A DNA stretch of 64,000 nt from Tachypleus tridentatus (Eukaryota > Arthropoda > Merostomata > Xiphosura > Limulidae). A program made the translations under genes and the position numbers. Under the pieces are notes generated by a model. It made no database searches, had not been told where the DNA came from, and saw nothing but the letters and a program-made list of their open reading frames with translations. Location: the NCBI RefSeq assembly GCF_004210375.1, contig NC_134831.1:1984001-2048000 (forward strand). The letters run 5' to 3'. This document shows, in pieces, positions 2,635 through 16,795 of this stretch (position 1 is the first letter of the stretch; every line of letters starts with the position of its first letter).

Positions 2635-2878
2635 TCAACAATTTGACGACAAACAAGTGTCGTCATTCGGGTTGTATTTGCAGTTGACGTCACAAAGATA
2701 TTTGGCGGCACAGTTTCCTCCATTTCTCCCGTATCTGTTGGCTGCCTGATCGGCTCCGCTGTCAGTTCCACCTTGAGAAAATTCCCGGCAATCGCTGATA
2801 ACTTTGGCAGTGCGTATTGACTGACTTTTTCTTCCGCACTTGTACACTGCGTTGTAGTTGCCTTGACAATGAAAATAT
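2635..2878 (-). CDS. SAA-like gene 1, last coding exon
   Basis: It follows the acceptor TTTTTCAG at 2886-2879 (minus strand) and ends with a TGA at 2637-2635. It encodes YFHCQGNYNAVYKCGRKSQ, then VISDCREFSQGG, ADQAANRYGRNGGN, and a C-terminal tail with five cysteines that vertebrate SAA lacks. It differs from the matching exon of gene 2 at four bases, one of which changes an amino acid (K for E in RTAKVISDC). A possible AATAAA signal lies about 220 bp downstream, at 2417-2412. Confidence 0.85.
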
Positions 2879-5800
2879 CTGAAAAATAATTGATAAAACT
2901 GAAGAGAAATGACTGTGTGTAATTAACAAGGTTTTAGTTGAATAAAATTTCATACATCATGTTTGTTTACTCATCATTTTAGAGGTTTTGATACACCGTG
3001 CAAGCTTGTGTATTATTTTATGGTTTTAAAATTAAAAAAAAAAAAATGTTGCACGTAAAAGACCAAATTTTCAGAGTATACTCAAGGAATAATGTGTACA
3101 ACTGTTTGACTTTTACGTGCAACATTTTTTTTAAATTTTAAAACTGACTGACACAAATCGATGACCAATGTATTGGAGCAGCCATATTATTCAAATTATA
3201 ATTTATCTCTACTAGTGATTGTTTTGTGAATTGATACGTTTTTACAAATATTACTGAATAACTTGTGTTTAGTGTTTAATTAACCAATATCTTAGTCTTT
3301 ACACGAATAATGCTCATTAATAGCTTTTCAGATAACTTTACAGCCCTCTGGTGGTAGAACAACTCGAATACGGCTAAATAAAGCGTTGTGACTCTTATAC
3401 TCTCAAACAGTGCAATTTGCGAACAGATTATTAGTGAAACATTCGAATTTAATACACTCTATATACAATGAAACAAAAAATATACTACTAACGAATGCTG
3501 ATAGACTGTAGTTTAAAGTTATCAGTATTTAGAATTGAATAATTGTATTTCCGTTTGTTCCTAACTTAGCATTTTTCTTCATGAATAGCACTGTTATCTG
3601 TAAGTCACAAGAGTCGCTGCTATTACCCAAATTTCATAATCTAGATAACAAGAAATAGCCTCACTAACCATTTTAAACCAGGGTTATACCTTATATATAA
3701 TGGCATTGGAAAACAAAGAACCACGAATCATCTTGGGGAACCAGGATACTTTAGAAAGAGACCTGAAACAATTCGTACTCTAGCCGCGGTAAACAAAGCG
3801 CGAGATTTTGAAGTAGGTGAAAATACAGGCAAATCAAGAAAGATGTCGGATTGAAAATAAAGCGAAAAGGGCATGGGTTCACCAAAATAAAGATTTCAGC
3901 GGATGAAACAGGTATTCGTGAAAGTTATTCTATACAAAGACGTATCTGACAAGTCCCTACACTTTAGAGACATTACAATTTGAAAACGCTCATTTGCAGT
4001 GACCAATGCCAAATCACCAAACAAAAAAGACACGTGCCCCATTTTAATCCTACAATGTTTTTAAAGTGTTACTGGTTTTAATCATTACCTTTACTGTTTA
4101 TGAACAGTGGAATATTGTTTACATACTCATCCTACGGTTAAAATGTTACTGGTTTTAGTAATTATCTTTCCTGTTCATTAACAGTGAAATATTGTTAACA
4201 TACTTAAGGTGTATTGGTTTTAATAATATAGTTTATTGCTCACCTAAATTACGACTTCTATTTAGTATTGGGTACGTGGAAGATTACTAATTAATTTGAT
4301 TACCATTAATCGAAAACGTACAAAGACCAAGCATGAGACGTTTGCCCTAAGGGCATTTTTGCGATTTAAAGAAGCCATAAACAATGCGCTGTTTACTGTT
4401 AATTTTACAGTTCAAAAACAGGAATTATACCAATTACAATGCTTTAGCTCCACTCCCTCAGTGACTAACGACGTTAAAAGGGGGAGGGTGTTCGACACTC
4501 ATGGTGGGCACAGAACAAATAGCACATTTTCATAGCTTTGTGATTAAGAACAACAGAACTTCGAATCCCCGTCACATTGAACATGCTTGCCTTTTCAACT
4601 TTAACGCCTTTTCAGCGTTATAATGTGACGTTCAATCCTACTATTCGTTAGTAAACGAGTAGCCCAAGAGTTAGCGGTGGGTAGTGATGGCTAGCTACCC
4701 TTCCTTTAGTCTTATATTGCTAAATTAGGGATGACTAGCGCAGATAGCTCTCGTGTAGCTTTGCGCAAAGTTCAAAACAAACCAAACCAAACAACCGAAC
4801 TTCAGTGAAGGTTTGGACATGTAGCAGCAGCATGCCAAGCAATTGCGCGTTGTGTAGGCTGTGAAGATAACCACCACATATTACAAAAACACTAAACAAA
4901 ACCCCAAACCAAAATGCTGCAACTGTGGGGAAGAACACATAACAAACTATAAAGGTTGCCAAAATATAAATAAATTAATACACATATATAAGAAATTAAA
5001 AATCCAGACACGCACAAGTCAAAGACACACACAATCCAAGAACAATAAAAAACAACTACCACTCAGAAACCAGAAAACATAATCTGCACCACAAACACAC
5101 AAGTAAACTCATATGCTGTAACAGTCAGGTAAAAACACCAATAACTAGTGAAGATTTACCAAAAACACCTGAAGTCACACAAAACCACACTAATGAATAT
5201 TGAAAATACATTGACCGATGCCATTACATCCACTTTCTCTGAAGTAATGGTCGAATACACTAATCCAAATAATGAAAACAGTTTAATAGACATAGTTATT
5301 AAAATACTTATGAAAAACATCCAAAAATACCTAACACAGATCTTAACATACTTCATGGATAAGTTAACCATGGATAAATTCACAGCACTACACATCAATA
5401 TCCAAGGTGCTATTGCTTCCAAGAAATATGAGATTGAAGATATAACCAACACCATAAAACCAGATGTCTTTGTAATTAGTGAAACAGCCCTCTATAACTA
5501 CCATAGATTTAAAATAAAAAGATATTCTATTATCAGACAGGATAGAAAGGATAAGAGAGATTCAAACAGAGGAATTTTCAACTGTATAAAAATGGACTTA
5601 TAGTTCAGCAATGAATCAGTAATAATAAACGTAAGAAATCAAAATAACACTGAAGTAACAGTGGCGGGCATTTACTGCTCGCCTAGCAAAGTATAGATGC
5701 CAATCTATTATATTCCATATATAACCACAATCCCACTATAGTAATTATAGGATATTTAACTAGTAAACATATCACCTTCAACTGTAGATGTACAAACCCT

Positions 5801-15578: not shown

Positions 15579-15822
15579 TCAACAATTTGACGACAAACAA
15601 GTGTCGTCATTCGGGTTGTATTTGCAGTTGACGTCACAAAGATATTTGGCGGCACAGTTTCCTCCATTTCTCCCGTATCTGTTGGCTGCCTGATCGGCTC
15701 CGCTGTCAGTTCCACCTTGAGAAAACTCCCGGCAATCGCTGATAACTTCGGCAGTGCGTATTGACTGACTTTTTCTACCGCACTTGTACACTGCGTTGTA
15801 GTTGCCTTGACAATGAAAATAC
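15579..15822 (-). CDS. SAA-like gene 2, last coding exon
   Basis: It follows the acceptor TTTTTCAG and ends with TGA at 15581-15579. The 244 nt are about 98% identical to the last exon of gene 1. It encodes YFHCQGNYNAVYKCGRKSQ, RTAEVISDCREF, DSGADQAANRYGRNGGN and the tail DVNCKYNPNDDTCLSSNC. A possible AATAAA lies at 15391-15386. Confidence 0.85.
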
Positions 15823-16795
15823 CTGAAAAATAATTGATAAAACTGAAGAGAAACGACTGTGTGTAATTAACAAGCTCTTTGATATACGAGACCCCCACAT
15901 GTATATTATTTTAGTGGTATAAAATAACCATATCTTAAAATACACGAAATAATCACAGTTGCATTCATTGTACAGGCTTAACAAGCTAACCTTTCTGTTA
16001 TAAAAAATAATAATAAAAACTCCTTTATCGCTCGAAAAAGACAGAATAAACTTTCACCTAACATTGTAACTTTTATGGGCGCAGCCATATTGGTGGACCT
16101 CAGCTGACCAAAAAAGAACAATATTAATAACGTAACTGTGACAATCTTGTTATCTAAAGTTCATGCTTATTTTCAGTTAACAATTCTTCACAAATTATTT
16201 AATAATTATACTTTAGCCAATTTAAATCTAGCTAAACATCTTCATAAATAATATAATCTAAAATTGTAACAACTCCAACAGGAATAAGATGTGTATTTTC
16301 AGAAAACTTTTTTTACTTCTTAATTTTTTACTTACCTTTCTACTCATAAATATTAGAATAGCCCACAGATAGCCTTGTGTAGCTTTGCGCGAAATTCAAA
16401 ACAAACCAACATGCAAGGTCATTTAAGTGATAAGAGCCTGTTGATCACAGCTTTTGCCTTCTGGTGGAGTAAAGTAATAACAATTTATAATACAGAATAT
16501 TAATATTATTAGTTTGAAATTGTTACAATAATTTGTTCATTTTAACAGGTTTAGTTCACTTACTTGTCACAGTTGATACATTTTATTGTACTCATTTTCC
16601 AATAACTCTTAAACATCTCAATCCCAGCACAGCGAACGTCACTGTCTGTTATGGCGCTGACGCCCATCTTTTCAGTTATACATCTGGTAAAGATTAACCA
16701 ATTCGTGCCGCAATAGCCGACATCAGTGATTAGGCTTAACACTAAGATCACTGGTACTAAACCCAGGAAAGGTGTGGTTGCAAATCTCATTGTTT
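15579..16795 (-). CDS. Serum amyloid A-like secreted cysteine-rich protein, gene 2 (two coding exons)
   Basis: The coding exons 16790-16564 and 15822-15579 on the minus strand join in frame to 156 residues, the same length as gene 1. Signal peptide: residues 1-27 (MRFATTPF...DVGYC). Mature part: TNWLIFTRC, SDVRCAGIEMFKSYWKM, CINCDKYFHCQGNYNA, VISDCREF, ADQAANRYGRNGGN and a cysteine-rich tail; 12 cysteines in all, enough for six disulfides. The central block matches SAA (PF00277) motifs; vertebrate SAA has no such cysteines, so this is a disulfide-rich variant. The 741-bp intron has a GTAAGT donor and a polypyrimidine acceptor and is free of large insertions, so this looks the more intact of the pair. 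An acceptor 5 nt before the ATG (CTACAG) again suggests an upstream non-coding exon. Confidence 0.83.
16358..16411 (+). repeat. SINE tail fragment in intron of SAA-like gene 2
   Basis: AGCCCACAGATAGCCTTGTG then AGCTTTGCGCGAAATTCAAA, the SINE-A 3' end only. The rest of the 741-bp intron shows no other repeat. Confidence 0.75.
16564..16795 (-). CDS. SAA-like gene 2, exon with start codon
   Basis: The ATG is at 16790-16788. The exon holds 5 nt of 5' UTR after an acceptor AG and 227 coding nt up to a GTAAGT donor. It encodes the signal peptide and the SAA N-terminal helices, ending CINCDK across the splice. The second SAA-like gene has the same phase and the same length here, which supports both gene models. 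Confidence 0.83.

Follow-up and report, generated by a model that had tools for sequence, protein, structure and literature searches.

Two genes resembling serum amyloid A (SAA), here called A and B, lie on the minus strand of the window, that is, the whole 64,000-nucleotide stretch of Tachypleus tridentatus DNA that was analysed. Both genes, rebuilt from the window, are real and well preserved, each with two coding exons and a product of 156 amino acids. In gene A, coding exon 1 (227 nt, 9367..9593) encodes residues 1–75 and two bases of codon 76, and comprises a signal-peptide-like start and the helix 1 region. A phase-2 intron of 6,488 nt follows (2879..9366), containing what was judged by eye to be a decayed LINE-like element (~5145-8158), and the last coding exon (244 nt including the stop, 2635..2878) completes codon 76 and encodes the protein up to residue 156, with helices 2-4 and a cysteine-rich tail. 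Gene B has a coding exon 1 of 227 nt (16564..16790), a phase-2 intron of only 741 nt (15823..16563) and a last coding exon of 244 nt including the stop (15579..15822). In both genes the donor at the end of exon 1 is AA/GTAAGT and the acceptor before the last exon is TTTTTCAG. Codon 76 (Lys) is split across the splice in both, so that the DKYFH motif is formed only upon exon joining. The original prediction had placed two SAA-like minus-strand genes of equal length and equal exon phase within 2635-16795. Both were found there with these properties, and only the upper end of the interval shifts, gene B starting at 16790.

The N-termini are hydrophobic (GRAVY 1.30 and 1.44 for A and B, residues 2-26), which makes the predicted secretion by way of a signal peptide likely, a call based on the hydrophobicity of the start. 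Mature proteins are counted from cleavage after Cys27, a site that is our own reading, and contain 12 cysteines in each case. A splice-acceptor-like CAG/AAAC, seen by eye on the minus strand, precedes the start codons of A (9593) and B (16790), and each gene may therefore carry a non-coding first exon. When the window was searched with both proteins (tblastn), no further convincing SAA copy was detected, just the four exons and chance-like matches.

Remains of Mariner/Mos1-like transposases are present as several broken frames at 11704-12796 (minus strand) and 38692-39450 (plus strand), with matches to PF01359 and PF17906 in 12063-12644 and to PF17906 in 38692-38964, while PF01359 in 11704-12072 is just below the cut-off. 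Open frames at 56486-58840 (minus strand) resemble a hAT-type transposase; their sole Pfam match, to PF05699, is weak and below the cut-off (E 0.0091). Tandem arrays include a 27-bp repeat at 61261-61589 (12.2 copies, 99% match), with long open frames through both strands, and related 62-63-bp units at 19859-20501 and 20801-21203 (10.2 and 6.5 copies). A dispersed repeat, tRNA-derived-looking and SINE-like by eye, has many copies on both strands (1624-1830, 4615-4795, 10238-10513, 13887-14099, 14561-14823 and more to ~54909), one of which forms the left edge of a tract described below. The sole ARAGORN gene, and the sole Rfam match at gathering score in the window, is a tRNA-Pro (agg) at 28908-28979 (minus strand). 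Two lysine-rich open frames on the plus strand (62705-63307 and 53530-53844) may be host-gene exons; Pfam, searched to E 0.01, gave no match for either.

Judged by sequence, A and B are serum amyloid A, as had been predicted. The Pfam SAA family, PF00277, matches gene A with 56.9 bits (E 2.9e-15) and gene B with 61.3 bits (E 1.3e-16), both above the curated cut-off of 30.8 bits, and no other Pfam family, cysteine-rich or otherwise, matches either protein up to E 10. The top PDB sequence matches are SAA1, SAA3 and SAA2, the best being SAA1 (E 1.8e-9). Our own profile, built from 39 bacterial or viral-contig SAA-like rows, gives 61.2 bits for A and 62.7 bits for B, compared with 8.0 bits for the best of 2000 shuffled versions of mature A. 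Taken together, these scores put the SAA match far above chance. The alignment of the core to vertebrate SAA had been described as free of gaps; this applies within each of the three blocks that were quoted, but the full alignment to mouse SAA3 requires an insertion of 3 residues and a deletion of 5, and the C-terminus is also unlike. A structure model of the exon-2 piece is poor (mean pLDDT 50.1), with the helices in the expected order.

The bacterial comparison started from 38 SAA-like loci on genome contigs and one on viral contigs, the latter kind showing no close relative when the whole protein was the query; L033, L037 and L038, which have no RP anchor, are counted among the 39 in the profile-based count. 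Of the genomes searched for the family in three phyla, 2 of 398, 37 of 292 and 1 of 296 had a match, the centre genome of each search included. These searches gave 33 loci, from which 8 were dropped as core-identical to rows in use and 25 were added, making 64 rows, all aligned to the profile built from the first 39. Phage and plasmid records, searched with one bacterial SAA query, gave no match. Of the columns occupied in 40 or more rows, those of His79, Glu108, Asp119 and Gly126 are invariant (64/64), and all four residues are retained in A and B, a likeness to the bacterial domains called prok-SAA in PMC12419801. The gene A codons of the first three are at 2869..2871 (helix 2), 2782..2784 (helix 3) and 2749..2751 (helix 4), all on the minus strand. 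The His count carries a bias for the first 39 rows, DKYFH having been part of a search pattern; no pattern contained the Glu or the Asp.

A His/Glu/Asp site acting on lipid head groups has been proposed for the lipocone superfamily, and animal SAA is described as often keeping it; the same paper proposes a helix-4 motif, sNxxGR, and an origin of animal SAA from bacteria before the cnidarian split (PMC12419801). The features given there for the SAA-Wnt clade (H in helix 2, E in helix 3, D in helix 4 and sNxxGR, here ANRYGR) are present in A and B, with the helix 3 residue meant by that paper taken from its conservation. Three of the four invariant residues, as aligned, fit the proposed lipid-head-group site.

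A and B also differ from the bacterial domains in several respects. Bacterial rows mostly have ANC where A and B have GNY, an RPxGL tail, absent from A and B, is found in the majority of the first 39 rows, and many of the bacterial domains, unlike A and B, sit within longer open frames. By eye, among L001, L012 and L033 (viewed 5' of the domain), L019 and L039, some of the SAA-like domains end frames that carry YD/Rhs-like repeats, and others come after an apparent peptidoglycan-binding domain.

With vertebrate SAA (PF00277; PDB 4ip8, 4q5g, 7zh7) A and B have in common DKYFH, GNY, ISDxRE, DSxADQxAN and GRxG, and the PDB mammalian proteins carry the same H, E and D. The tails differ, since the vertebrate one keeps RPxGLPxxY, which A and B do not have. 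Vertebrate SAA has Ala at the position of Cys80, and at the two tail cysteines the PDB proteins show a gap and then Pro in one alignment, and a gap over both in another. The missing motif and the 12 cysteines of mature A and B set them apart from the vertebrate type, taken here as having an RPxGLPxxY tail and no cysteine; a human amyloid A protein is noted as cysteine-free (PMC6117975). In a tree that included two vertebrate SAAs as well as 41 rows from bacteria or viral contigs (built on all columns occupied in 30% of rows, those of Cys among them), A, B and the vertebrate SAAs are on one side of a branch and the bacterial and viral-contig rows on the other (98/84). By this grouping A and B belong with animal SAA (Met-SAA), not with bacterial SAA. 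A tree without the vertebrate rows put them on a long branch among proteobacterial rows, a placement given no weight because that tree had no other animal.

The original prediction, which knew of no described cysteine-rich SAA in chelicerates, implied a novelty that the literature mostly does not support. In ticks, SAA is induced by Babesia (PMC3712896; PMC5627281), and in two Rhipicephalus species its knock-down is reviewed as having cut infection with Babesia bigemina by 66% and 86% (PMC5627281; also PMC3712896); a knock-down that lowers parasite load fits a factor used by the parasite better than simple defence. An SAA-like protein is reported in the transcriptome and proteome of infected Rhipicephalus (PMC6454348), a tick SAA transcript appears in a haemocyte table (PMC11789329), Amblyomma salivary glands yielded four SAA coding sequences, three of them thought to be alleles (PMC3244413), and a Haemaphysalis haemolymph list includes SAA with the entry 152, which we take as its length (PMC9128142). 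Two SAA-5-like genes of a prawn are up throughout the time points of a viral infection (PMC12018387), and a sea-cucumber SAA is LPS-induced by Northern blot, although not significant on an array (PMC2702171). PMC13163884 cites Zamocky and Ferianc 2023 for an SAA tree in which bacteria, spiders, ticks, molluscs and echinoderms have clades. Tick, spider and prawn SAA are likened to A and B here by description, as arthropod SAA reported in print. Among the matches listed for serum amyloid A together with horseshoe crab, no title concerned such a protein, and a word search of the main text of a Tachypleus gigas haemocyte proteome (PMC9365167) did not find 'amyloid'. The clot protein stablin, little mentioned in the papers found, is a further conceivable identity for A and B. 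SAA in arthropods is already known, and A and B are sound additional SAA genes. The cysteines common to A/B and the bacterial rows make a modest evolutionary point.

Three cysteines of the mature proteins, Cys80, Cys138 and Cys142 (gene A codons 2866..2868, 2692..2694 and 2680..2682, minus strand), fall on columns occupied by Cys in 22, 29 and 22 of the first 39 rows, the latter two corresponding to the first and second tail cysteines of the bacteria. At the Cys80 and Cys142 columns both residues are Cys in 24 of 64 rows and both something else in the other 40, with no discordant row (0/64). The first 39 rows divide into 22 with both and 17 with neither, the later 25 into 2 and 23, and three additional viral-contig rows (L073, L075 and L076) are concordant by eye. 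A looser pair, formed by the Cys of ANC and the first tail Cys, has both, the first only, the second only or neither in 27, 4, 2 and 6 of the 39 rows and in 20, 2, 0 and 3 of the 25. On a tree made with these columns left out, sites of the looser pair change seven times each and sites of the strict pair three times each; the strict pair provides 2 supported independent pairs, both concordant, a test without power for significance. The 64/64 concordance suggests a Cys80-Cys142 disulfide, though with only three changes on the tree, and the simplest reading would be that the pair was inherited and then lost in vertebrates.

The two genes are related very unevenly along their length. Exon 1 is identical at 161 of 227 positions (70.9%) and exon 2 at 240 of 244 (98.4%), with dS 1.48 and dN 0.24 in the former vs dS 0.064 and dN 0.005 in the latter. 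About 30 of 46 synonymous sites differ in exon 1 vs 3 of 49 in exon 2 (Fisher p 8e-10 on rounded counts). Positive selection as the cause of exon 1 divergence is ruled out by the high dS and a dN/dS of ~0.16. The exon 2 products differ at one residue, Lys101 in A being Glu101 in B, where PDB SAAs have K or E. The similar tract (1727..2930 in A, 14719..15874 in B) takes in exon 2 with its 3' flank and reaches 52 nt into the intron. High identity starts within a repeated element near 1727-1785, is 92.4% to 2441 and 97.2% over 2467-2930, and falls abruptly 52 bases into the intron, where the last 52 bases match at 51 of 52 positions and the next stretch at 67 of 115 ungapped ones. Over 500 nt of 3' flank the copies differ at 12 of 466 ungapped sites and show 68 gap columns, against 4 differences in 244 in exon 2. 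The pattern is one of old paralogues whose exon 2 was homogenised recently, for which gene conversion is the best account, probably confined to the exon that codes the putative active lobe.

Could the near-identity of exon 2 instead come from a mistake in the assembly, or from that exon simply having been duplicated recently? One edge of the tract does sit in a repeat that occurs many times in the window, but the two tract copies show scattered differences and each exon 2 has a separate, diverged exon 1 before it, with splice sites in order, which leaves this explanation improbable. More serious is the idea that the cysteine pair shared with bacteria arose independently in arthropods, as cysteines were being gained generally. 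For nine of the 12 mature cysteines the bacterial alignment has no cysteine-rich column to match, as if cysteines had been gained freely, and the small number of changes in the tree is in its favour as well. Chance gains would, on the other hand, have had to make three cysteines of A and B coincide with the three cysteine columns of the bacteria and keep the CxxxC spacing. We regard an independent origin as quite possible, though less likely than not.

An enzymatic role of SAA is itself a proposal from one paper (PMC12419801), and A and B may be a non-enzymatic SAA: a secreted carrier of lipid or retinol that is also an opsonin, with H, E and D serving folding or ligand binding. Mammalian SAA is reviewed as binding HDL and retinol and as an opsonin (PMC6117975), and the mammalian structures keep H, E and D too; we put this at slightly below an even chance. 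Against it, the three residues are identical in every one of the bacterial and viral-contig rows, whose hosts are without HDL, and this suits a common chemistry more than lipid transport in animals.

The reading that we prefer, with roughly even odds (about 0.5), combines tandem Met-SAA genes, conversion of exon 2, a disulfide-held bundle and an immune factor acting on lipid head groups. A and B, SAA by sequence and grouping with the animal type (Met-SAA), would each make a secreted protein ~129 residues long with 12 cysteines once the signal peptide is removed. The SAA helix bundle would be held by disulfides, one of them probably joining Cys80 in helix 2 to Cys142 in the tail, while gene conversion would have homogenised exon 2 between the genes. 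The least certain step is the last, in which the product would be a secreted innate-immune factor that binds, and perhaps cleaves, microbial lipid head groups, as in the lipocone proposal. The responses of tick, prawn and sea-cucumber SAA to infection or LPS speak for this reading; the tick knock-down result, the lost RPxGL tail, the poor exon-2 model and the lack of Cys at the Cys80 position in 17 of the 39 and 23 of the 25 rows speak against it. A bolder version, which we consider unlikely, is that arthropod SAA represents the older, bacterial-type, disulfide-locked and catalytically competent enzyme, from which the cysteine-poor, amyloid-prone vertebrate SAA is derived, with conversion keeping the active-lobe exon uniform as the N-terminal exon diverges.

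Mammalian SAA is known chiefly for marking the acute phase and for giving rise to amyloid; the family may also have an enzymatic job. An invertebrate SAA that retains the residues conserved across the bacterial forms, and perhaps a disulfide of old origin, would be well suited to testing for an enzymatic role. The homogenisation limited to one exon contrasts a conserved, putative effector lobe with a diverging N-terminus.
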